A stretch of 64,000 nt of DNA from Motilibacter peucedani. GTDB taxonomy: Bacteria > Actinomycetota > Actinomycetes > Motilibacterales > Motilibacteraceae. The stretch spans positions 1-64,000 of the forward strand of contig NZ_RBWV01000001.1 of NCBI RefSeq assembly GCF_003634695.1, written 5' to 3'. A program made the position numbers and the translations under genes. Of this stretch, positions 2,707 to 15,274 are shown piece after piece (within the stretch, counting starts at the first letter, position 1; every line of letters begins with the position of its first letter). A model generated the notes under the pieces. That model did not search any database. It was not told the origin of the DNA and saw only the letters and a list, made by a program, of their open reading frames with translations.

Positions 2707-4010
2707 GCGAACCACTTCCGGACCACGCCGAGCCCGTCGACCAGTGCGTCGACGTCGGCGGTCGTCGAGTAGGCGTAGAACGACGCCCGGCTGGTGGCGG
2801 GGACGCCGAAGCGGTCGCACACCGGGCGCGCGCAGTGGTTGCCGACGCGTACGGCGACGCCCTGCGCGTCGAGCACCTGGCCGACGTCGTGGCTGTGGAT
2901 GGGGCCGCCGGCCCCCTCCATGACGAACGACACGGCGCCGCCGCGCTCGAGCATGGTCCCGGGGCCGACGACCCGCAGACCGGGCACCTCGGCGAGCCGC
3001 TCGAGCGCGTAGGCGGTGATCCGCTGCTCGTGGGCCGCGACCGCGTCCATGCCGAGGCCCGAGAGGTAGTCGACGGCCGCACCGAGGCCGACCGCCTGCG
3101 CGATCGGCGGCGTGCCGGCCTCGAACTTGTGCGGCAGGGCGGCGTAGGTCGAGCCGGCCATCTTGACCGTCTCGATCATCTCGCCGCCGCCGAGGAACGG
3201 CGGCAGCTCGGCGAGCACGGCCTCGCGGCCCCACAGCACGCCGATGCCGGTGGGTCCGGCCATCTTGTGGCCCGTGAACGCCACCAGGTCGACGCCGTCG
3301 GCGGCCAGCGCGCCCACGTCGTAGGGCAGCTGCGGCACGGCCTGCGAGCCGTCGACGACGACCAGCGCGCCCGAGACCTGCTTGGCGCGCCGGGCGACCT
3401 CGGCGACCGGGTTGACCGTGCCGAGGATGTTGGAGACGTGGACGAGCGAGACGACCTTCGTGCGCTCGGTGAGCAGCTCGTCGAGGTTCGAAAGGTCGAG
3501 CCGGCCCTCGTCGGTCAGCCCGATCCAACGCAGCGTGGCGCCGGTGCGCTCGCACAGCAGCTGCCACGGCACGATGTTGGAGTGGTGCTCCATCTCGGTG
3601 ACGAGCACCTCGTCGCCGGGACCGACGCGCCACCGGCTCCCCCACGCCACGACGTTGGCGACGAGGTTGAGCGCCTCGGTGGAGTTCTTGGTGAACACCA
3701 CCTCGCTGCGCGACGCGGCACCGATGAACGACACGAGCTTGTCGCGCGCGCCCTCGTAGAGCGCGGTCGCCTCCTCCGCCAGCGCGTGCACGCCGCGGTG
3801 CACGTTGGCGTTGGAGCGGCGGTAGTAGCTGTCGAGCGCGTCGAGGACGACCTGCGGCTTCTGCGAGGTCGCCGCGGAGTCGAGGTAGACCAGCGGCCGC
3901 CCTCCCGACCCGTCGGCGTCGTGCACGGTGCGCGACAGGATCGGGAAGTCGGCGCGCACGGCCTCGGCGTCGAGCACGGCCGGCGCGACCCGCTGGACGT
4001 CAGCGGTCAC
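2703..4010 (-). CDS. sufS: SufS, PLP-dependent cysteine desulfurase
   Basis: A 435-residue class V aminotransferase-fold enzyme that removes sulfur from L-cysteine for Fe-S assembly. The PLP-binding lysine is K249 in FTGHKMAGP and the persulfide-carrying cysteine is C393 in VGNHCARP. Other family marks are LDSAATSQKP near the N-terminus and TEMEHHSN, which holds the cofactor-stacking His. The GTG start at 4010 overlaps the sufC stop (GTGA). Its partner sufU follows directly, which fits a SufS-SufU pair. Confidence 0.95.
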   Translation of the reverse strand: MTADVQRVAPAVLDAEAVRADFPILSRTVHDADGSGGRPLVYLDSAATSQKPQVVLDALDSYYRRSNANVHRGVHALAEEATALYEGARDKLVSFIGAASRSEVVFTKNSTEALNLVANVVAWGSRWRVGPGDEVLVTEMEHHSNIVPWQLLCERTGATLRWIGLTDEGRLDLSNLDELLTERTKVVSLVHVSNILGTVNPVAEVARRAKQVSGALVVVDGSQAVPQLPYDVGALAADGVDLVAFTGHKMAGPTGIGVLWGREAVLAELPPFLGGGEMIETVKMAGSTYAALPHKFEAGTPPIAQAVGLGAAVDYLSGLGMDAVAAHEQRITAYALERLAEVPGLRVVGPGTMLERGGAVSFVMEGAGGPIHSHDVGQVLDAQGVAVRVGNHCARPVCDRFGVPATSRASFYAYSTTADVDALVDGLGVVRKWFA

Positions 4011-4765
4011 GAGGCCAGCTTGGTGTAGCGCTCGTAGCCCTCGGCCTCGAGCCGCTCGGCGAGCTCCTTGCCGCCCTGCTCGGCGATGCGCCCGTCGACG
4101 AACACGTGCACGAAGTCGGGCTCGATGTAGCGCAGGATGCGGGTGTAGTGCGTGATCAGCAGCACGCCGACCTCACCGGTGGCGCGCACCCGGTTGACGC
4201 CCTCGGACACCACGCGCAGCGCGTCGACGTCGAGGCCGGAGTCGGTCTCGTCGAGCACGGCGATCTTCGGCTTGAGCAGCTCGAGCTGGAGGATCTCGTG
4301 GCGCTTCTTCTCGCCGCCGGAGAAGCCCTCGTTGACGTTGCGCTCGGCGAACGCGGGGTCGACGCCCAGGCGGTCCATCGCCTCGCGGACCTCCTTGACC
4401 CAGGTGCGCAGCGCGGGCGCCGAGCCGCGGGTCGCCGTGGCCGCCGTGCGCAGGAAGTTCGACACCGAGACGCCGGGGACCTCGACGGGGTACTGCATCG
4501 CCAGGAAGAGCCCGGCCCGCGCGCGCTCGTCGACCGGCATCGCCAGCACGTCCTCGCCGTCGAGCGTGACGCTGCCGCCGGTGACGGTGTACTTCGGGTG
4601 CCCGGCGATGGAGTAGGCCAGCGTCGACTTGCCCGAGCCGTTGGGGCCCATGATCGCGTGCGTCTCGCCCGCCCGGACGGTCAGGTCGACGCCGCGCAGG
4701 ATCTGCTTGGCACCGGCTTCGGTGTCGACGGTGACCTGCAGGTCTCGGATCTCGAGGGTGGACAT
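4007..4765 (-). CDS. sufC: SufC, ABC-type ATPase of the SufBCD scaffold
   Basis: A 252-residue cytosolic ABC ATPase that powers the SufB-SufD scaffold. Walker A is GPNGSGKS at 40-47, the signature is SGGEKKRHEI from about residue 149, and Walker B with its Glu is IAVLDE at about 168-173. The SGGEKKR form of the signature is typical of SufC and separates it from transport ATPases. The ATG has a GAGGAG about 10 bases upstream. It lies between the Rieske ferredoxin gene and sufS. Confidence 0.95.
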   Translation of the reverse strand: MSTLEIRDLQVTVDTEAGAKQILRGVDLTVRAGETHAIMGPNGSGKSTLAYSIAGHPKYTVTGGSVTLDGEDVLAMPVDERARAGLFLAMQYPVEVPGVSVSNFLRTAATATRGSAPALRTWVKEVREAMDRLGVDPAFAERNVNEGFSGGEKKRHEILQLELLKPKIAVLDETDSGLDVDALRVVSEGVNRVRATGEVGVLLITHYTRILRYIEPDFVHVFVDGRIAEQGGKELAERLEAEGYERYTKLAS

Positions 4766-4791
4766 GCGGGAGGGCTCCTCAGGGGTGGGGA

Positions 4792-5109
4792 TCAGGCCTC
4801 GGGCGAGACGTCGACGAGGACGTCGTCACCGGCGAGGGTCACGGGGTAGACGGGCACGGGGGCGGTCGCGGGCGGCCCGGAGGGCTTGCCCGTGCGCAGG
4901 TCGAACATCGAGCCGTGCAGCCAGCACTCGAGCTCGCAGCCGTCGACCTCGCCCTCGGAGAGCTTGACGTTGGCGTGGCTGCAGCGGTCCTGGATCGCGA
5001 AGAACCCCTCGTCGGTGCGCACGACCGCGACCTGGACGCCCTCGACCGTGACGGCCAGGGGCGCGTCGAGGGCGAAGTCGGCGACCGAGCCGACGCGTAC
5101 AGCGCTCAC
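4792..5109 (-). CDS. Rieske-type [2Fe-2S] ferredoxin in the suf operon
   Basis: A 105-residue single Rieske domain. The ligands are C43-S-H45 and C62-W-L-H65, so the cluster site is complete. Small Rieske proteins like this resemble ferredoxin components of dioxygenases, but no oxygenase gene is nearby. The gene sits between sufD and sufC and its GTG overlaps the sufD stop (GTGA). In actinomycetes this position suggests an electron-transfer role in Fe-S assembly, which is inference. Confidence 0.9.
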   Translation of the reverse strand: MSAVRVGSVADFALDAPLAVTVEGVQVAVVRTDEGFFAIQDRCSHANVKLSEGEVDGCELECWLHGSMFDLRTGKPSGPPATAPVPVYPVTLAGDDVLVDVSPEA

Positions 5110-6293
5110 GCGCGGCCCCCGGCGAGCTCGGCCTCGATCGCGGCGATGAGCCGCTCGCGGACCGCCGGCACGGTGATCTTCTGCAGGACGTCGACGAAGA
5201 AGCCCTGCACGACCAGGCGGCGGGCCTCGTCCTCGGGGATGCCGCGCGCCTGCAGGTAGAACAGCTGCTCGTCGTCGAAGCGGCCGGTGGCGCTGGCGTG
5301 GCCGGCGCCCTCGATCTCGCCCGTCTCGATCTCGAGGTTGGGCACCGAGTCGGCGCGGGCGCCGTCGGTCAGGATGAGGTTGCGGTTGAGCTCGTAGGTG
5401 TCGGTGCCGCCGGCCTCGGCGCGGATCAGCACGTCGCCCACCCAGACGGTGTGGGCCGACTCGCCCTGCAGGGCGCCCTTGTAGGTCACCCGCGAGCGGC
5501 AGTTCGGCTGGCTGTGGTCGACGAAGAGCCGGTGCTCCTGGTGCTGGCCGGAGTCGGCGAAGTAGAGCCCGCGCAGCTCGGCGTCGCCGCCGGGGCCGGT
5601 GTACTCGACCGTCTCGACGACGCGGACGAGCTCGCCGCCCAGCGTGACCTGGGTGGAGGAGATGCGGGCGTCGCGGCCGAGGCGTACGCCGTGGTGCGCC
5701 GCGTGCACGCTGCCGTCGTCCCAGCCCTGGACGCTCACGAGCTCGAGCGAGGCGCCGTCGCCGACGACGACGGAGACCTCGGCGCCGTAGCGGGCGGCGC
5801 CGTCGTGCTCGAGCACGACCGTCGCCTTCGCGAACGCGCCGACCTCGACGACCACGTGGCCCCAGACGACGTCGGCCGCGGAGCCGGTGCCGGTGAGCCG
5901 GACGACCGCGGGCTCGTCGAGCTGGGCCTCCTTGGGCACGGAGACGACCAGCGCGCCCTCCGAGCGCGTGGCGGCGAAGGCCGAGACGCGGTCGACGGGT
6001 GCCGGCACCGAGCGCAGGAACGGGTCGTCGGCGCCGACGGTGCGCAGCTCGACGCCGTCGGGCAGCTCGCTGGAGACGCTGAGCCGGTGCGCCGACGGCT
6101 CGCCGTCGAGCAGGCCGCCGAGGGTGTCGAGCGGGGTGAAGCGCCAGTCCTCCTCGCGGCCCGAGGGCCGCGGGAAGTCGGCGGGGTCGAAGGAGCGCAC
6201 GCTGTCGGCGCGGCTGCGCACGTCGACGACGGGTGCGCCCCCGCCGTGGGAGTGCTCCTTGACCACGACAGGAGCGAGGACGGACTCGGTCAT
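5106..6293 (-). CDS. sufD: SufD, Fe-S cluster scaffold subunit
   Basis: A 395-residue SufB/SufD-family protein with the right-handed beta-helix core and the family C-terminus ([32 protein letters not shown]). It forms the scaffold heterodimer with SufB. The ATG overlaps the sufB stop (ATGA) and begins MTESVLAP. The N-terminal [11 protein letters not shown] segment is typical of SufD. Sequence upstream of this start in the same frame is a shadow of sufB. Confidence 0.93.
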
Positions 6294-7702
6294 CCGACGG
6301 CGCCTTCCATCTGCAGCTCGATCAGGCGGTTGAGCTCGAGGGCGTACTCCATGGGCAGCTCGCGCGCGATGGGCTCGATGAACCCGCGCACGATCATGGC
6401 CATGGCCTCCTCCTCGGTCATGCCGCGAGACATCAGGTAGAACAGCTGGTCCTCGCTGACCTTCGAGACCGTGGCCTCGTGCCCCATCTGCACGTCGTCC
6501 TCGCGGACGTCGACGTAGGGGTAGGTGTCCGAGCGGCTGATCGTGTCGACCAGCAGCGCGTCGCAGCGGACCGTCGACTTCGAGTGGTGCGAGCCCTCGA
6601 GCACCTGGACCAGGCCGCGGTAGGACGTGCGGCCGCCGCCGCGGGCGACGGACTTGCTCACGATCGAGGACGACGTGTAGGGCGCCGCGTGGACCATCTT
6701 CGAGCCGGCGTCCTGGTGCTGGCCCTCTCCCGCGAACGCGATGGAGAGCGTCTCGCCCTTGGCGTGCTCGCCGACCATCCAGACGCCGGGGTACTTCATG
6801 GTGACCTTGGAGCCGAGGTTGCCGTCGATCCACTCCATCGTCGCGCCTTCGTGGGCGACGGCCCGCTTGGTGACGAGGTTGTAGACGTTGTTGGACCAGT
6901 TCTGGATCGTCGTGTAGCGGACGCGGGCGCCCTTCTTGACGACGATCTCGACGACGGCCGAGTGCAGCGAGTCGCTGGAGTAGATCGGCGCGGTGCAGCC
7001 CTCGACGTAGTGGACGTAGGAGTCCTCGTCGGCGATGATCAGCGTCCGCTCGAACTGGCCCATGTTCTCGGTGTTGATGCGGAAGTACGCCTGCAGCGGG
7101 ATGTCGACGTGGACGCCCTTGGGCACGTAGATGAACGAGCCGCCCGACCACACCGCGGTGTTGAGCGCCGAGAACTTGTTGTCGCCGGTCGGGATGACCG
7201 TCGTGAAGTACTCGCGGAACAGCTCCTCGTGCTCGCGGAGCGCAGTGTCGGTGTCGAGGAAGATGACGCCCTTCTCCTCGAGGTCCTCGCGGATCTTGTG
7301 GTAGACGACCTCGGACTCGTACTGCGCCGCGACGCCGGCGACGAGGCGCTGCTTCTCGGCCTCGGGGATGCCGAGCCGGTCGTAGGTCGACTTGATGTCC
7401 TCGGGCAGCTCCTCCCACGAGGAGGCCTGCTTCTCGGTCGAGCGCACGAAGTACTTGATGTTGTCGAAGTCGATGCCGCCGAGGTCGGAGCCCCAGGTCG
7501 GCATGGGCTTCTTGTGGAACAGGCGCAGGCCCTTGAGGCGCAGGTCGAGCATCCACTGCGGCTCGTTCTTCCGTGCGGAGATGTCGCGCACGACCTGCTC
7601 GGAGAGCCCGCGCTTGGCGGTGGCACCGGCCGAGTCGGGGTCGGCCCAGCCGTACTCGTAGCGTCCGAGGCCGTCGAGCTCGGGGTGGGCAGTCTGCGTC
7701 AT
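6290..7702 (-). CDS. sufB: SufB, Fe-S cluster scaffold subunit
   Basis: A 470-residue scaffold on which [4Fe-4S] clusters are built. Family features are [14 protein letters not shown] near the N-terminus, the central [10 protein letters not shown] segment with its conserved Cys, and the C-terminal [18 protein letters not shown]. The ATG at 7702 overlaps the sufR stop by one base (TGATG), showing direct coupling to the regulator. No intein is present, unlike the SufB of some mycobacteria. It is the first structural gene of the suf operon. Confidence 0.95.
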
Positions 7703-8433
7703 CAGTGCATCCCTCCGGAAGAGGCTGTTGTGGAGCTGGTGGTCACGTGGGTGGTGCAGACGTGCTCGCCGTGTGCGAGCGTCGCGAGCCTGCGGGTCGG
7801 CGCCCCCACCAGGCGCGCGAACGAGGCCGCCTCGGCGTCGCACAGCTGGGGGAACTCGGCGGCGACGCTCTGCACGGGGCAGTGGCCCTGGCAGAGCTGC
7901 GCGCCGCCGGCCGGCGAGGTGCGCACGCTGGCCGCGTAGCCGTCGGCCGACAGGGCGGCGGCCAGCGCGTCGAGCCGCTGGGCGGGATCCTCCCCGGCGG
8001 CGTCGACGGCCGCGGCGTAGCGCGCCTCGACCTCGCCGACGCGTGCCCTGGCGAAGGCGTCGACCGCGGCCTCGCCGCCGGTGGCCGCGAGGAAGCGCAG
8101 CGCGGAGACGGCGAGGTCGTCGTAGGAGCTGGCGAGCGCCGCGTGCCCGGTGCCGGTGAGCGCGAACTCCTTGGCGGGGCGTCCGCGGCGGCGCGGCCCG
8201 GCGGCGCGCTCCTCGCGCGCCTCGACGTGGCCGGCGGCGAGCAGGGCGTCGAGGTGGCGGCGCACGGCGGCGGGGGTCAGCCGGAGCTGCCGGGCGAGGG
8301 CCGCCGCGGTGAGCGGGCCGGCCTCGGAGATGGCGCGCGCGACACGGTCGCGCGTGCGGGCGTCGGGCTCCTGCGGGCGCGCCTCGGAGACCGGCTCTGC
8401 GCCGGTCCCCTGCACGCTCGCGTCCACGACCAT
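7702..8433 (-). CDS. sufR: SufR, Fe-S-sensing winged-helix repressor of the suf operon
   Basis: A 243-residue DeoR/ArsR-like regulator. The N-terminal winged helix covers about residues 25-90 ([14 protein letters not shown], then the RGRPAKEF wing). The C-terminus has cysteines C181, C185, C198 and C226, including CQGHCPVQ and the C-X12-C spacing expected of a cluster ligand set. SufR represses its operon when it holds a cluster. The ATG at 8433 is chosen because homology starts soon after. In-frame GTG codons just upstream (8442, 8445) are alternatives that would place the start inside the operator. Confidence 0.9.
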
Positions 8434-8438
8434 CAATT

Positions 8439-8453
8439 GCACAACACCAGTGT
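8439..8453 (-). promoter_or_regulatory. Putative SufR operator
   Basis: On the coding strand the sequence reads ACACT, five bases, TGTGC. This matches the inverted repeat reported for mycobacterial SufR (ACACT-N5-TGTGA) at 9 of 10 arm positions. It ends 6 bases before the sufR ATG, where a bound repressor would block initiation. The match and position are seen directly; binding is inferred. Confidence 0.65.
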
Positions 8454-8612
8454 GTCCTAATTCGCTTCCCGCTGTCGCGCAGGGCTGAGTGGGCCGCGTC
8501 ACGGAAGGCTCCCCTAACCCGGCACGGACGGGCAGGGACGAGGTGTACGCAACCGGCCCGTACGCGCTCATCCCGGGTGCATGCTGTTCACACGACGCAC
8601 CGGAGGTGCGGG

Positions 8613-10934
8613 ATGGCGACGAGCGACGGCCCGGGCGGGCCACGGCGCGGAGCAGGTGCCCGCGCGGCGCTGCTGCGCTGGCTGCAGGGCACGGCTGCGC
8701 CGGTCACCCTGCTGCCCGGCCGACCCCCCGACGCACCGCCCGCTGCCGCGCGACCGGCGCGGGACGGGGAGCCGCTGCGCGCCGTGTGCTGCTCGGGCGG
8801 CGGCATCCGCGCCGCCGCGTTCGCCCTCGGCGGGATGCAGGGCCTGCACCGCCGGCCCGCGGGCGGCGGCGCGAGCTGGTACGACGGCGTACGCCTGGTC
8901 ACCGCCGTCTCCGGCGGCGCCTACATCGCGGCCTCGGCCGCCATCGTCAACCACCACCTCACCGACGCCCAGCGCGCCGAGCTGCCCGCCTACGCGCCCG
9001 GCTCCCCCGAGGACAACCGGCTGCGGGCGCACACGCGCTACCTCGCCGAGGACCCGAAGGTCGCGGCCTACGGCGCGCTGAGCATCCTCTACGGCCTCGT
9101 GCTCAACCTCGTGCCCGTCCTGCTCGTGGTCTGCATCGCCGCGCGCCTGGTCGGCTGGGCGCTCTACGAGTGGGACCTCGTGCGGGTCAGCGACGGCGGC
9201 CGCACCTGGGAGGTGGGCGACCTCACGACGGTCGCGCTGGTGCTGCTGGGCGTCGCGGGCGCCGGGCTGCTGCTCTACGCCGTGGAGCGCGTGCGCGACA
9301 TCTACTTCCCGCCCCGCGAGACGTTGTACGCGGCGCTGCGCTCCTGGTCGCTGCGGCTGCTGAGCACGGCGGCCGCGGGCGCCGTGCTGCTGATGGGCGT
9401 CCCCGAGCTGATGCACCTGCTCAGCCAGGTGCGCGACGCCCGGCCGGGACTGGGCGGCGGCGCGCAGACCGGCGGCCTGCTGGGCACGACCTCCGCACTG
9501 GTGGTGCTCGTGAAGAGCACGCTGGGGCGCTTCAAGGGCCAGCTGCAGGCCACCAGCGGGAGCCGGCCGGGGCTGGTGTCGAGCGCGCTGAAGCGCGCCG
9601 TGTCGGCGCTCTCGCCGTGGCTGGGCTCGGGCCTGGCGCTGCTGGCCCTCGTCGCCGCGTTCGTGACCTGGACGACCGGGCCGGCCTGGCACGGGCTCGG
9701 CACCGACGACCGGGTCGTCGTCGCGGTGCTGGCTGCCGCGCTGCTGCTGTGGCAGCTGCTCAGCGACATCAACCGCAACTCGGTGCACCCGTTCTACAAG
9801 GAGCGGCTCTCCTCGGCCTACGTGGTGCGCCGCTCCCCCGACGGCACGAGCGCCGACTCGCTCGACTACACCCAGCCGGTGCGCTTCTCCGACTTCGCGC
9901 AGCCGCACGACGTGCCGGAGCTCGTCGTCTGCGCCGCCGTCAACACCGCCGAGGAGGGCCGCGCGCCCTCTGGCCGCGGCTGCGCGTCGTTCACCTTCTC
10001 CGCTCGGCACACCGGCGTCACCGCAGGGCCGCTCGACACCCCCGAGCGGCTCGCCGCGGCCCACCGCGCCGGCCACCTGCGCGACACCGCGGAGTACGAG
10101 CGCATCGCCGGCGTACGCCTGCTGACCCTCCCCGCGGCGGTCGCTGTCAGCGGCGCCGCGGTGTCGCCGCTGATGGGCCGCTACACCCGGGCCCCGCTGC
10201 GGCTGCTGCTCTCGCTGGCCAACGTCCGGCTCGGGCTGTGGCTGCCGAACCCCATGCACCCGGGCTGCCGGCTGCAGGCGCCGGACCCGGAGGACGGGCC
10301 GCTCGTGAAGGTGTGGCGCCTGCTCCGCACCCAGCTGCGCCAGCCCGGCATCCCCGGCCTGCTGCGCGAGATGAGCGGCCGGGTGGGGCTCTCCGGCCGC
10401 TGGGTCTACGTCACCGACGGGAGCCACTACGAGAACCTCGGGCTGGTCGAGGCCCTGCGCCGCGGAGCCGACGAGATCGTCGTCTTCGACGCGTCCGGCG
10501 ACCTGCCCAACCGGTGGGCGGAGTTCGGCCAGTCGGTGGCGACGGCGCGCGCTGACCTCGGCGTCGCCGTCCGGCTCGACCCGACGACCATGACCACCGA
10601 CGAGAAGACCATGCGCGCCGCAGCGCTGGTGGCGCGCGGGACGTGCGAGTACCCCGACGGCCGCGTCGCGGCGCTCTACCTGTGCAAGCTGGCGCTGCCG
10701 GCCCAGGCGCCGGCCTCGTGGGACGTGCTCGCCTGGGCGTTCGCCCACCAGGAGTTCCCCCACGACACCGTCGCCCAGCAGCTCTACGGCGACCGGGAGT
10801 TCGAGGCCTACCGGCGCATCGGCGAGCTGGCGGCGGCCGCAGCGCTCGACGCCATGGCGGCCGAGGAGCCCGTCGTCCCCGCCGCGCGGGTCGACCTGGA
10901 CGCCGGTCGGACGGTCGCGACGACGCCTTCCTGA
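8613..10934 (+). CDS. Patatin-like phospholipase-family integral membrane protein
   Basis: A 773-residue protein with the parts of a patatin Ser-Asp lipase separated by membrane segments. The oxyanion motif is SGGGIRAAAF at about 61-70, the nucleophile Ser100 is in AVSGGAY, and the candidate catalytic Asp602 is in TDGSHYENLG. Between them are about six hydrophobic helices, including LNLVPVLLVVCIAARLVG, ALVLLGVAGAGLLLYAV and LALLALVAAFVTW. The start at 8613 has GGAGGT six bases upstream; an ATG at 8577 lacks this. It is divergent from sufR. Hydrolysis of membrane lipids is likely but the substrate is unknown. Confidence 0.8.
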   Translation: MATSDGPGGPRRGAGARAALLRWLQGTAAPVTLLPGRPPDAPPAAARPARDGEPLRAVCCSGGGIRAAAFALGGMQGLHRRPAGGGASWYDGVRLVTAVSGGAYIAASAAIVNHHLTDAQRAELPAYAPGSPEDNRLRAHTRYLAEDPKVAAYGALSILYGLVLNLVPVLLVVCIAARLVGWALYEWDLVRVSDGGRTWEVGDLTTVALVLLGVAGAGLLLYAVERVRDIYFPPRETLYAALRSWSLRLLSTAAAGAVLLMGVPELMHLLSQVRDARPGLGGGAQTGGLLGTTSALVVLVKSTLGRFKGQLQATSGSRPGLVSSALKRAVSALSPWLGSGLALLALVAAFVTWTTGPAWHGLGTDDRVVVAVLAAALLLWQLLSDINRNSVHPFYKERLSSAYVVRRSPDGTSADSLDYTQPVRFSDFAQPHDVPELVVCAAVNTAEEGRAPSGRGCASFTFSARHTGVTAGPLDTPERLAAAHRAGHLRDTAEYERIAGVRLLTLPAAVAVSGAAVSPLMGRYTRAPLRLLLSLANVRLGLWLPNPMHPGCRLQAPDPEDGPLVKVWRLLRTQLRQPGIPGLLREMSGRVGLSGRWVYVTDGSHYENLGLVEALRRGADEIVVFDASGDLPNRWAEFGQSVATARADLGVAVRLDPTTMTTDEKTMRAAALVARGTCEYPDGRVAALYLCKLALPAQAPASWDVLAWAFAHQEFPHDTVAQQLYGDREFEAYRRIGELAAAAALDAMAAEEPVVPAARVDLDAGRTVATTPS

Positions 10935-11186: not shown

Positions 11187-11228
11187 ATGACCTACGCCCC
11201 CTCGACCCCTGACCTGGTGCGGGCATGA
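11187..11228 (+). other. 13-codon ORF translationally coupled to the FMN reductase gene
   Basis: An ATG follows a good ribosome site (TGAGGAGAA, ACCGCC spacer) and encodes MTYAPSTPDLVRA. Its TGA overlaps the next ATG (ATGA). The reductase has no ribosome site of its own outside this ORF, so the mini-ORF probably delivers ribosomes to it. It may be a regulatory leader or what is left of a deleted upstream gene. Confidence 0.4.
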
Positions 11229-11797
11229 GCGCCCGCGGGGTCGTCTCGCTGTCGGGCAACCCCCGCAGGGGCTCGCGCACCTCGCACGTCGCCGCGCTGC
11301 TCGGGGCCGACCTGCACGACGAGCTCGGCCTGCCCGGCGAGGCGGTGCACCTCGACCTGGCCGAGCTGCCCAACCCGCTCGCGGCGGGCGCGTCCGAGGC
11401 GCTGGCCGAGGCGGTCGAAGCCGTGCGCGGGGCCGCCGTGCTCGTCGTGGCGACACCCACCTACAAGGCGAGCTACACCGGCCTGCTCAAGGCGTTCGTC
11501 GACCTGCTGCCGCCGGCCGCGCTGGACGGCGTGCTGGCCGTCCCGGTGATCACCCTCGGCTCCCCCGCCCACACGCTGGCCGCGGAGGTGCACCTGCGGC
11601 CGCTGCTGCTCGAGCTGGGCGCCACGACGCCCACGGCGTCGGTCGCGCTGCTCGACGCCGACCTCGCCGACGCGGCTGCCACGTCACGGCGCGTCGTCGG
11701 CTCGCTCGTGCCGTACCTCACAGCGGTCGCTGCGCTCGCGGCGCGCGACTCCCCTGTGCTCAGGGTCACGGCTGCCGGAGCGGGGCTGGCGCCCTAG
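11225..11797 (+). CDS. NADPH-dependent FMN reductase (SsuE/MsuE-like)
   Basis: A 190-residue flavodoxin-fold reductase. The phosphate-binding loop is LSGNPRRGSRTS at about 9-20, and the flavin region has the SsuE-like TPTYKASYTGLLKAFVDLLP. Such enzymes supply reduced FMN to two-component monooxygenases, classically for sulfonate use. No monooxygenase or sulfonate transporter gene is adjacent. The ATG overlaps the stop of a 13-codon ORF. The SsuE family is clear; its partner is not. Confidence 0.85.
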   Translation: MSARGVVSLSGNPRRGSRTSHVAALLGADLHDELGLPGEAVHLDLAELPNPLAAGASEALAEAVEAVRGAAVLVVATPTYKASYTGLLKAFVDLLPPAALDGVLAVPVITLGSPAHTLAAEVHLRPLLLELGATTPTASVALLDADLADAAATSRRVVGSLVPYLTAVAALAARDSPVLRVTAAGAGLAP

Positions 11798-11806: not shown

Positions 11807-12730
11807 ATGTCCGCCGCTGCCGTCGAGGTCGTCGACCTGGTCAAGCGCTACGGACCCCGGCCCGTCGTCGACGGGCTCTCGCTGCGCGTCGAGCGCGGCT
11901 CGGTCACCGCGGTCCTCGGGCCCAACGGCGCCGGCAAGACCACGACCATCGAGACGTGCGAGGGCTACCGCCGTCCCGACTCGGGCACCGTGCGGGTGCT
12001 CGGTCTCGACCCGGTCCGCGACAGCGCCGAGCTGAAGGCGCGCGTCGGCGTGATGCTGCAGGGCGGCGGCATCCCCAACGCCATCCGCCCGCAGGAGGCG
12101 CTCGAGCACGCGGCCGCGCTCTACGCCGACCCCCTGCCGCCGGGCCTGCTGGTCGAGCGGCTCGGGCTGGGCGGCTCGCTGCGCACGCCCTACAAGCGGC
12201 TCTCCGGCGGCCAGCAGCAGCGGCTCTCCCTCGCCCTGGCGCTGGTCGGGCGGCCCGAGCTGGTCTTCCTCGACGAGCCGAGCGCCGGGCTCGACCCGCA
12301 CGCGCGCGGGGTCATCGGAGACCTGGTGATCGAGCTGCGCCGGGCCGGGGTGACCGTGGTGCTGACCACCCACCTGATCGACGAGGCGGAGCGGCTCGCC
12401 GACGAGGTCGTGATCATCGACACCGGACGGGTGGTGGCATCCGGCTCCCCCGCCGAGCTCACGGCCGGCGGCGCGCAGACGCGCCTGACCTTCTCCGCGC
12501 GGCCGGGGCTGCCGCTCGAGGCGCTGCGCTCGGCGCTGCCCCTCGGACTCACCGTCACCGAGGAGCCCGCCGGCGCCTACCGCGTCGACGGCCCGCTGAC
12601 CCCGGCAGCGCTGGTGGCCGTGACCGGCTGGTGCGCGGCGCTCGACGTCATGCCGGTCGGGCTCTCGGTGTCGCGGCGTACGCTCGAGGACGTCTTCTTC
12701 GAGATCACCGGCCGGGAGCTGCGCGCGTGA
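11807..12730 (+). CDS. ABC-2 exporter ATP-binding protein
   Basis: A 307-residue ATPase. Walker A is GPNGAGKT at 38-45, the signature LSGGQ begins at residue 132, Walker B is LVFLDEPSAGLDPHARG, and the switch His is in TTHLIDEAERL. The C-terminal 80 residues form the extension common in drug or polysaccharide exporters. The gene overlaps the permease by 4 bases and lies beside ctaA, as in other actinomycetes. The exported substrate is not known. Confidence 0.9.
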   Translation: MSAAAVEVVDLVKRYGPRPVVDGLSLRVERGSVTAVLGPNGAGKTTTIETCEGYRRPDSGTVRVLGLDPVRDSAELKARVGVMLQGGGIPNAIRPQEALEHAAALYADPLPPGLLVERLGLGGSLRTPYKRLSGGQQQRLSLALALVGRPELVFLDEPSAGLDPHARGVIGDLVIELRRAGVTVVLTTHLIDEAERLADEVVIIDTGRVVASGSPAELTAGGAQTRLTFSARPGLPLEALRSALPLGLTVTEEPAGAYRVDGPLTPAALVAVTGWCAALDVMPVGLSVSRRTLEDVFFEITGRELRA

Positions 12731-13595: not shown

Positions 13596-14531
13596 GTGAG
13601 CAGATCTTGGCGCATCGTCCTCGGCCTGGCCTGGGCCTCGCTGGTCGCCAACTGCCTGCTCGTCGTCACCGGCGGAGCGGTCCGCCTCACCGGCAGCGGG
13701 CTCGGCTGCCCGACCTGGCCGCAGTGCGGCGACGGGTCCTACGTCACCCACTCGGCCTACGGCCTCCACGGGGCGATCGAGTTCGGCAACCGGATGCTCA
13801 CCTTCGTGCTGGCGCTCGTGGCCGTCGCGACGCTGGTCTCCGCGCTGACCGCTCGGCCCTACCGCCGCGGGCCCGTGCTGCTGGCCCTCGGGCTCTTCCT
13901 CGGCATCCCGGCCCAGGCCGTCATCGGCGGCATCACCGTGCTGACCAAGCTGAACCCCTGGGTCGTCATGCTCCACCTGATGTGCTCGCTGCTGATGGTG
14001 GCCGCAGCCGCCCTGCTCGTCGTGCGCGTCCGCGAGGGCGACGCCCCCGCCCGCTCCGAGCTGGCGCAGCCCCTGCGCCACCTGACCTCGGCGCTGCTCG
14101 GGCTCGTCCTGGTCATCTGCTACCTCGGCGCCGTCGTCACGGGCAGCGGTCCCCATGCCGGCGACCTCGAGGCCAAGCGCACGGGGCTCGACCCGGACCG
14201 CATGTCGCAGCTGCACGCCGACGGCGTCTTCCTGCTCGTCGGGCTGACCGTCGCGCTGCTCGTGGCGCTGCACGCCACGGGCGCCCCTGCGGTCGTCCGC
14301 CGCGCGGCGGCCGTCCTGCTCGTCGTCGAGCTGGCCCAGTCGGTCATCGGCTTCGTCCAGTTCTTCACCGGGCTCCCGGCGGCCCTGGTCGCCGCCCACA
14401 TGCTCGGCGCCACGGTCCTCGTGGCCGCTGCCGTGCACCTGGTGCTGTCGACGCGCACGCGCGCCACACGCGTACCCGCCGCGCGTCCTGCCGCGTCCGC
14501 CGCCCGGCCGGCGGTGGCGGCCCGGACGTGA
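13596..14531 (+). CDS. ctaA: CtaA, haem A synthase (COX15/CtaA family)
   Basis: A 311-residue polytopic protein with about eight helices. It oxidises haem O to haem A for cytochrome aa3 oxidase. The N-terminal VRLTGSGLGCPTWPQC contains the conserved Cys pair of the first extracellular loop. Haem-ligand His candidates are in YGLHGAIEFGNR, MLHLMCS, QLHADGV and VAAHMLG. The GTG start is set by a -10 box 7 bases upstream and by homology. The Ala/Arg-rich C-terminal tail is cytoplasmic. Its substrate maker, ctaB, lies about 3 kb away. Confidence 0.93.
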   Translation: MSRSWRIVLGLAWASLVANCLLVVTGGAVRLTGSGLGCPTWPQCGDGSYVTHSAYGLHGAIEFGNRMLTFVLALVAVATLVSALTARPYRRGPVLLALGLFLGIPAQAVIGGITVLTKLNPWVVMLHLMCSLLMVAAAALLVVRVREGDAPARSELAQPLRHLTSALLGLVLVICYLGAVVTGSGPHAGDLEAKRTGLDPDRMSQLHADGVFLLVGLTVALLVALHATGAPAVVRRAAAVLLVVELAQSVIGFVQFFTGLPAALVAAHMLGATVLVAAAVHLVLSTRTRATRVPAARPAASAARPAVAART

Positions 14532-15274
14532 GCGGTCCGGACGACGCGCACGCGGCTGCCGCGGCGTCGTTCGGCGCGGCCGCCGGCGTCTACGAGCGCG
14601 CGCGCCCGGACTACCCCGCCGCCGCGCTCGACTGGCTGCTGCCACCGGGCGCCCGGCGGGTCCTCGACCTCGGTGCCGGCACCGGCAAGCTCACCCGCCT
14701 GCTGCGGGCCCGCGGGCTCGAGGTGACGGCGGTGGAGCCCTCGGCCGGCATGCGCGCCGAGCTCGAGCGGGCGGTGCCCGGCGTGCGCAGCCTGGCCGGG
14801 CGCGCCGAGCAGGTGCCGCTCGCCGACGGCGCGGTCGACGCGGTGCTGGTCGCGCAGGCGTGGCACTGGGTCGACCCGGCCGGCGCGGTGCCCGAGGTCG
14901 CCCGGGTCCTGGCGCCCGGCGGCCGTCTGGGCCTGGTCTGGAACGTGCGCGACGAGAGCCACGAGTGGGTGGCCCGGCTCGGCGAGCTGCTCGACGGCGG
15001 CGGCCGGCCGAACGACACCAGCGTCGACCCGCAGGTGGGGCCGCCGTTCGGGCAGCTGGAGACCCGCACGGTCGCCTGGACGCACGAGACGACGCCGGAG
15101 GGCCTCGTCGAGCTCGCCGCCTCGCGCAGCTACGTGATCCTGCTGCCGGAGGACGAGCGCGCGGCGCTGCTCGGGCGCGTGCGCTCGCTGCTCGCCTCGC
15201 ACCCCGACCTGGCCGGTCGGAGCAGCATCGCGCTGCCCTACCTCACCCGGTGCTACCGCGCTGCGCTCGCCTAG
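14528..15274 (+). CDS. Class I SAM-dependent methyltransferase
   Basis: A 248-residue methyltransferase of the UbiE/type 11 fold. The SAM-binding motif is VLDLGAGTGKLTRLL, followed by the acidic strand VTAVEPS and VDAVLVAQAWHWVDP. This WHW form is common in a large actinobacterial group of unknown substrate. The GTG start overlaps the ctaA stop by 4 bases, so it is in the same transcript. Its stop shares CTAG with the convergent acetyltransferase gene. Confidence 0.85.
   Translation: MSGPDDAHAAAAASFGAAAGVYERARPDYPAAALDWLLPPGARRVLDLGAGTGKLTRLLRARGLEVTAVEPSAGMRAELERAVPGVRSLAGRAEQVPLADGAVDAVLVAQAWHWVDPAGAVPEVARVLAPGGRLGLVWNVRDESHEWVARLGELLDGGGRPNDTSVDPQVGPPFGQLETRTVAWTHETTPEGLVELAASRSYVILLPEDERAALLGRVRSLLASHPDLAGRSSIALPYLTRCYRAALA

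Follow-up and report, generated by a model that had tools for sequence, protein, structure and literature searches.

Introduction

Enzymes of the patatin type are recognized by a GGGxR/K loop, a Ser nucleophile held in a strand-turn-helix, and an Asp within a DGG/A motif. Cytosolic phospholipases A2 (cPLA2; group IV) carry the loop as SGGGxR, their Ser228 and Asp549 also lie far apart in the sequence, and most group IV members bear a C2 domain that targets them to membranes. Here we investigated a gene in a 64,000-nucleotide stretch of Motilibacter peucedani DNA (hereafter the window), which encodes a protein of 773 residues whose patatin-type motifs are separated by a long hydrophobic region. 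We propose, with a probability of roughly 0.65, that this protein is an integral inner-membrane acyl hydrolase with a predicted cPLA2/patatin fold, and that in part of its family such hydrolases would feed a neighbouring fatty-acid alpha-dioxygenase (alpha-DOX).

Results

A GGAGG ribosome site (8602-8606) lies upstream of the gene, whose features were placed as follows from the sequence, a family alignment and an AlphaFold2 model.

8613-10934, plus strand: coding sequence, ATG at 8613 to stop at 10934, for a split patatin/cPLA2-like membrane protein (773 residues; AlphaFold2 model)
8793-8810, plus strand: oxyanion loop SGGGIR, residues 61-66 (sequence and family conservation)
8910-8912, plus strand: predicted nucleophile Ser100 in AVSGGAY (conservation and model)
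9054-9761, plus strand: putative six-helix membrane insert, residues 148-383 (family hydropathy, model, insert folded alone, loop charges)
9765-10862, plus strand: predicted second catalytic half, residues 385-750 (model and conserved columns)
10416-10418, plus strand: predicted catalytic Asp602 in VTDGSHYEN (conservation and model)

A single-sequence scan of the named genome contigs with the window protein returned 18 stretches and no relative; a profile scan of the named genomes found 191 relatives, of which the best 80 were taken. The window protein and 75 relatives chosen from these 80 loci make up a 76-row alignment. Rows were filtered with regular expressions for the GGG loop and for [TSA]DG[GSA][HYFQ]xxN, and five loci were dropped (L053, L054, L057, L059 and L079) in which one or both motifs were not found in an open frame. 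Conservation of the loop (S61-G64 invariant, R66 99%) and of Asp602 (76 of 76) is therefore partly built in, whereas Ser100, which played no part in the filter, is Ser in all 76 sequences. The sequence-only reading of this DNA had located the oxyanion loop and nucleophile early in the protein and the catalytic Asp near residue 602, and the motifs do lie at these places.

We next examined whether the separated parts are predicted to form one domain. The AlphaFold2 model, built from the 76-sequence alignment, reached a predicted local distance difference test score (pLDDT) of 85.4 and a predicted template modelling score of 0.86, and contains a single patatin-type core made of the parts before and after the insert. 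The best VIA-align match was human cPLA2alpha (1cjy_B; Z = 24.0; root-mean-square deviation (rmsd) 4.4; 385 residues aligned over model residues 45-756), followed by cPLA2delta (Z = 22.7-23.3), and the top Foldseek match was also cPLA2 (E = 8.7e-4). The bacterial patatin PlpD (5fya_A; Z = 18.9; rmsd 3.3), the CBASS (cyclic-oligonucleotide-based antiphage signalling system) effectors CapE and CapV (Z = 17.0-19.0; CapE, Z = 19.0) and potato patatin (4pka; Z = 17.4; rmsd 4.6; 281 aligned) matched as well, so that the predicted model has both the patatin fold and the cPLA2 catalytic fold. Since 92% of PlpD (233 of 253 residues) is matched over model residues 54-750, both halves appear to share one core, which supports the view that the catalytic halves come together. 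In the model, the Ser100 region is a predicted nucleophile elbow (strand 93-98, then helix 101-115), and Asp602 sits in a loop after strand 597-601; we take these to be the places that the two residues hold in the patatin fold. The contrast that had been drawn with compact soluble patatins is apt, though the nearest structural relative is cPLA2.

The region between the two halves was examined by hydropathy. On the single sequence, a Kyte-Doolittle scan found five hydrophobic stretches within residues 150-387 and another at 498-521, which belongs to none of the model's six long helices (148-186, 205-231, 236-276, 284-313, 321-360 and 364-383). The mean hydropathy profile of the 76 members has six centres (157-181, 208-220, 249-267, 288-296, 336-354 and 371-380), and its 19-residue means reach about 2.2. 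With five stretches in the single-sequence scan and six in both the family profile and the model, the earlier claim of a patatin domain split by about six membrane helices held. The split is a trait of the family: between Ser100 and D385 the number of hydrophobic peaks is 5 or 6 in 70 of the 76 sequences (range 4-7), as against none between D385 and D602 in 71 of 76.

The insert is by far the less conserved part of the protein. Only 1 of its 237 columns is conserved at 90% or more, compared with 68 of 458 in the catalytic halves (17 of 92 in the first and 51 of 366 in the second), and identity to the window protein has a median of 20% within the insert and 39% outside it. Conserved residues flank it on both sides, with E133, R138 and Y143 before helix 1 and D385, S390, H392, Y395, R398 and L399 after helix 6. 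Folded alone, the insert again gave six helices (pLDDT = 85.7), and comparison of this fold with Foldseek candidates yielded a best Z of 7.2, mostly over short helical stretches. In the family average, loops 2-3 and 4-5 bear a net positive charge and the other three (1-2, 3-4 and 5-6) a net negative one, so that by the positive-inside rule both catalytic halves would lie in the cytosol. This fit, together with the low conservation, suggests that the insert is an anchor placing the active site on the inner leaflet, which would be its simplest reading.

Turning to distribution, we found one copy of the hydrolase in the window's genome and copies in 3 of 97 other relatives' genomes; the congener G001 and the family mates G002-G004 lack it. 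Record titles of the relatives are mostly actinobacterial. Contigs of metagenome-assembled genomes, in which binning errors are possible, also carry titles from Myxococcota (L035), Thermomicrobiales (L042, L052 and L074, one bin) and Chloroflexi (L062). Isolate plasmids of Azospirillum, Phyllobacterium and Rhizobium are firmer evidence, and in their homologues the loop, the nucleophile, 6-7 hydrophobic peaks and DGGH follow one another in the same order. The idea of a membrane-embedded lipid hydrolase specific to actinomycetes thus stands in its first part, as judged by the predicted fold, and fails in its second, because alphaproteobacterial plasmids and the metagenomic contigs carry the architecture. 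On a Hymenobacter volaticus plasmid (L123), the homologue is found in two open reading frames (2954-5302 and 5407-6585), broken between the hydrophobic part and the second half; the second frame starts LHHFYRNRL and contains DGGH, and the break may be a frameshift or reflect a genuine pair of chains.

In plasmid records that carry annotation, the gene is mostly named 'patatin-like phospholipase family protein' or 'hypothetical protein'. Family proteins are already in databases, and we found no paper on the group among the literature matches listed: within these open-licence titles and abstract openings, none concerned a membrane-split patatin or a patatin beside an alpha-dioxygenase. NCBIfam gave no match for the window protein and, across 46 family members, a 'sunset' domain match in one, the remaining matches being weak and single. 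Taken together, the family is real, conserved and structurally coherent, and is a variant of the patatin/cPLA2 type, not a separate kind.

To look for functional context, we clustered up to three genes on each side of the hydrolase in 75 loci, using a simple gene finder (L074 yielded no call). The largest cluster is a protein of about 600 residues. Its representative at L069 matches Pfam animal haem peroxidase (PF03098; E about 1e-106), and its best matches in the PDB are the plant fatty-acid alpha-dioxygenases 4kvj and 4hhr (E about 1e-113, nearly full length). A protein of this type is present in the flanks of 17 of the 75 loci. Fourteen have the motif YRMH, which presumably holds the catalytic Tyr and the haem ligand; two are cut and motif-less (L060 and L082, where the match starts at the end of the stretch), and one (L075) is a more distant PF03098 protein of another subfamily, with YRWH. 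One of the 14 (L070) runs off its stretch, leaving 13 of 75 loci with an alpha-DOX both uncut and bearing YRMH. The search model was made from 12 of these neighbours and the L121 protein, so re-finding them is circular; the Pfam and PDB searches made on some of them are not. At least 3 kb was available on both sides in 59 of the 75 loci, and all 17 linked loci are among these.

The placement of the alpha-DOX gene varies. One Streptomyces/Kitasatospora clade has it upstream of the hydrolase and on its strand, Virgisporangium directly downstream, and Chloroflexi downstream on the opposite strand; in Phyllobacterium and Rhizobium jaguaris it is fused to a catalase-like part. Linked loci include those of Kitasatospora aureofaciens (L080) and Streptomyces olivaceoviridis (L071). 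A quick protein tree (84 rows; 19 linked, 48 unlinked and 17 unscored) requires 10 changes of the linked label, of which starred branches force 9; with strict labels (15 versus 48) the number is 8. The label is more clustered than in shuffles (mean 17.5), and its changes may be gains or losses. Of 29 plasmid records that bear the hydrolase, an independent plasmid search found five (Phyllobacterium, R. jaguaris and Rhizobium CB3171, CB3060 and NXC24) in which an alpha-DOX shares the strand of the hydrolase match and lies some 3.4-3.6 kb away from it.

Across genomes, PF03098 proteins and the hydrolase co-occurred in a class sample (6 of 7 versus 31 of 190; Fisher 1.9e-4) and in a phylum sample (5 of 10 versus 35 of 286; Fisher 0.005). 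In the latter, the hydrolase was counted from matches spanning at least 500 profile positions, which tallied 10 of 17 genomes, the matches in the other seven being shorter. We give this co-occurrence little weight, because the genomes are related, larger genomes are richer, and several PF03098 matches are partial or weak and perhaps not alpha-DOX (G036, G075, G138, G222, G300 and G408).

Alpha-dioxygenases use free fatty acids, so in the linked organisms the hydrolase most likely supplies them, as far as gene order can tell. Bacterial alpha-DOX has been reported from five phyla including Actinobacteria (PMC8720084), and in the main text of that article the words 'patatin', 'phospholipase', 'catalase' and 'operon' each occur 0 times. 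On a Streptomyces sp. NBC_00069 plasmid (L140, 1003-5926), a peroxidase matching alpha-dioxygenases has an alpha/beta hydrolase and a cytochrome P450 as neighbours, perhaps following a similar logic with a different hydrolase.

A second recurrent neighbour is a putatively catalase-related protein, found near the PF03098-type protein or fused to it in 12 of the 17 linked loci. The profile of its stand-alone form (387 residues in L071) matches residues 12-330 of the Phyllobacterium fusion L121 (E = 3.5e-36), a region that also matches Pfam Catalase (E = 8.6e-7). In PDB searches, the stand-alone protein matched 3e4w, a putative uncharacterised protein, at E = 0.016 and catalase at E = 0.29. Single frames joining a catalase-like part to an alpha-dioxygenase occur at L121 (9336-12185; Phyllobacterium), L139 (4577-7426; R. 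jaguaris), L070 (11514-14108; a Streptomyces) and L129 (12210-15308; G142). In addition, a 130-residue protein with a weak DUF4267 match (3048-3440 in L069) recurs in ten other loci, all 11 being among the 17 PF03098-linked loci.

We then considered the window copy itself. Alpha-DOX is absent from the 64-kb window, and hence from within about 6 kb of the hydrolase gene, the distance used to define a cassette. The same genome carries a full-length alpha-DOX of 612 residues on another contig (G000:C12; E = 3.3e-114), which is 56% identical to the Streptomyces neighbours and keeps YRMH. The link to oxidation accordingly has good grounds in part of the family, and for the window copy it is only plausible. 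A second, weaker animal haem peroxidase match is present in this genome at G000:C4:22642-23163.

A scan of eight neighbouring window proteins identified suf genes, a helix-turn-helix (HTH) regulator, a flavin mononucleotide (FMN) reductase, an ATP-binding cassette (ABC) transporter and ctaA. Those closest to the hydrolase gene are listed below.

7702-8460, minus strand: HTH regulator, sufR-like (Pfam HTH matches; name inferred from its place beside sufB)
11225-11797, plus strand: FMN reductase (scan of window neighbours)
11807-12730, plus strand: ABC transporter ATPase (scan of window neighbours)

As far as can be told, the FMN reductase and the ABC ATPase lie outside the hydrolase system. In G002, G003, G004 and G084 the regulator adjoins the ABC ATPase, with about 120-160 bp between alignment ends, and in the congener G001 the two are several kb apart, with other sequence that includes the FMN reductase between them. 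The adjacency in relatives points to either acquisition or loss of the hydrolase gene at this site. Further along, a tRNA-Leu (gag) at 14498-14590 overlaps the 3' end of the called ctaA frame, which ends at 14531, by about 34 bases.

Discussion

We propose that the window protein is a phospholipase A or lysophospholipase type of acyl hydrolase in the inner membrane. Ser100 would attack the ester, Asp602 would complete the dyad, and SGGGIR would form the oxyanion hole. The insert that follows the nucleophile helix, with its six predicted transmembrane helices, would keep the active site on the cytosolic side and at the inner leaflet, in which case calcium-dependent recruitment would be unneeded. 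In part of the family, the released free fatty acids would be oxidised by the neighbouring haem fatty-acid alpha-dioxygenase, and in most linked loci the catalase-related protein may process the hydroperoxide. Catalysis, topology, substrate and the fatty-acid hand-over are all drawn from sequence, conservation, the model, structural matches and gene neighbourhoods, and the dioxygenase step is a further inference for the window copy, as the dioxygenase of this organism is encoded at an unlinked site. If correct, the protein would be an integral-membrane form of a domain usually thought soluble or peripheral, with the membrane part having arisen within the active-site domain. For at least a branch of the family, the repeated gene linkage provides a concrete functional lead, which is the value added here, and it offers a bacterial setting for asking how lipid release couples to lipid oxidation.

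Several observations weigh against this reading. The window protein carries the patatin motifs with two departures: AVSGGAY has Ala in place of the first Gly of the classical GxSxG, and DGS replaces DGG in this protein alone among the 76. We nevertheless expect the window copy to be active, because it retains the Asp and the corresponding motif of human cPLA2 is DSG. Its Pfam Patatin (PF01734) score is 16.7 bits, below the cut-off of 27.7 that is passed by the homologues P0004 (29.1), L042 (34.7) and L030 (34.3); in favour of the reading, Patatin is matched at E <= 0.1 by 38 of 46 family members and PLA2_B (PF01735) by 10 of the 46. PLA2_B gave no match at E <= 1 for the window protein, so that its curated score is not reached either, and P0004 exceeds that cut-off (26 versus 23 bits) over an N-terminal segment only. 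A PDB sequence search with the window protein returned no match, and none with the first family profile, the 76-row alignment or the second half alone gave a significant patatin or cPLA2 match. For the 76-row alignment, the top PDB rows (E = 0.0027 and 0.01) were helical proteins with design-like names matched by the hydrophobic insert, and the patatin-type matches, all N-terminal, were ExoU (E = 0.017-0.019), VipD (0.08-0.16) and cPLA2 (0.31). As the second half has no PDB relative by sequence, its assignment rests on the model and the order of motifs.

The proposed hand-over faces objections of its own. No dioxygenase neighbour was found in the flanks examined at 58 of the 75 loci, and the window locus also has none. 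Of the 16 distinct carrier genomes in random samples, one (G142) has the hydrolase and a PF03098 protein linked, at a distance of about 6 kb, though several of the contigs are short. Full-length PF03098 proteins occur without the hydrolase in G001, G002 and G004, a pattern implying that the dioxygenase does not need the hydrolase. The catalase label is weak, with Pfam empty on two stand-alone copies.

Among other explanations, the one that survives best, though we consider it unlikely, keeps the fold and the anchoring and holds that the enzyme acts mainly in transacylase or lysophospholipid remodelling, moving acyl chains between lipids. Human PLA2G4D, of the closest structural family, has been reported to catalyse transacylase reactions (PMC11621493). 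In keeping with this, cPLA2delta is among the best fold matches and most loci have no adjacent PF03098-type consumer of fatty acids. Remodelling would, on the other hand, leave unexplained why the gene is repeatedly linked to that of an enzyme with known relatives that act on free fatty acids.

Far less probable is a role in defence, in which a membrane patatin destroys the cell's own membrane upon phage infection, as CapV and CapE do in CBASS. These effectors are among the better structural matches, and on a Streptomyces aurantiacus plasmid (L122, 3922-7663) a homologue precedes a gene annotated as 'Pycsar system effector family protein'. Against it, PADLOC assigned the window protein to 0 families and gave 2 weak stray matches in 46 members, the eight neighbouring window proteins scanned include no cyclase, and the phage records searched held no hydrolase match. 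The window protein thus shows neither the PADLOC match nor the cyclase neighbour of a CBASS effector, and the defence reading is not supported.

We think it similarly improbable that the insert is a working membrane domain, such as a lipid flippase or transporter, to which a regulatory or inactive patatin part is attached: all 76 rows have hydrophobic peaks in the insert and it folds into confident helices by itself, yet it is the least conserved part of the protein, with 1 of 237 strongly conserved columns against 68 of 458 in the catalytic halves. That the helices instead form a large hydrophobic soluble lid is about as improbable: the cPLA2 cap also lies between Ser and Asp, and these are far apart in sequence there too, but the helix lengths, hydropathy and loop charge pattern here fit membrane spans.

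The proposed inner-membrane acyl hydrolase, which would feed an alpha-dioxygenase in part of its family, can finally be set beside known systems. With PlpD and patatin (PF01734) the window protein has in common the Ser-Asp dyad layout, the oxyanion loop and the fold; the matched PlpD and patatin chains, of 248-359 residues, leave no room for an insert of this kind. The CapE and CapV effectors likewise share the fold, and the window protein differs from them by its membrane insert. Its closest counterpart by structure is group IV cPLA2 (PF01735), with which it shares the SGGGxR loop. In contrast to cPLA2, it is bacterial, has no Pfam C2 match at E <= 1, and carries six putative transmembrane helices inside the domain. 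The likeness to described bacterial alpha-DOX (PMC8720084) concerns the neighbour protein, not the hydrolase.

Tentatively, and with more doubt than confidence, these parts could be read as an oxylipin cassette spread over several phyla, in which a membrane-embedded cPLA2 homologue would cleave acyl chains off lipids of the inner leaflet and pass these fatty acids to an alpha-dioxygenase of the cyclooxygenase (COX) superfamily and a catalase-related haem protein, the window organism using the two main enzymes from unlinked loci. Such a cassette would parallel the animal cPLA2-to-COX route, with a phospholipase that is integral to the membrane instead of recruited by calcium, and the linkage hints at a bacterial counterpart of the path by which animals turn membrane lipid into an oxidised lipid signal.

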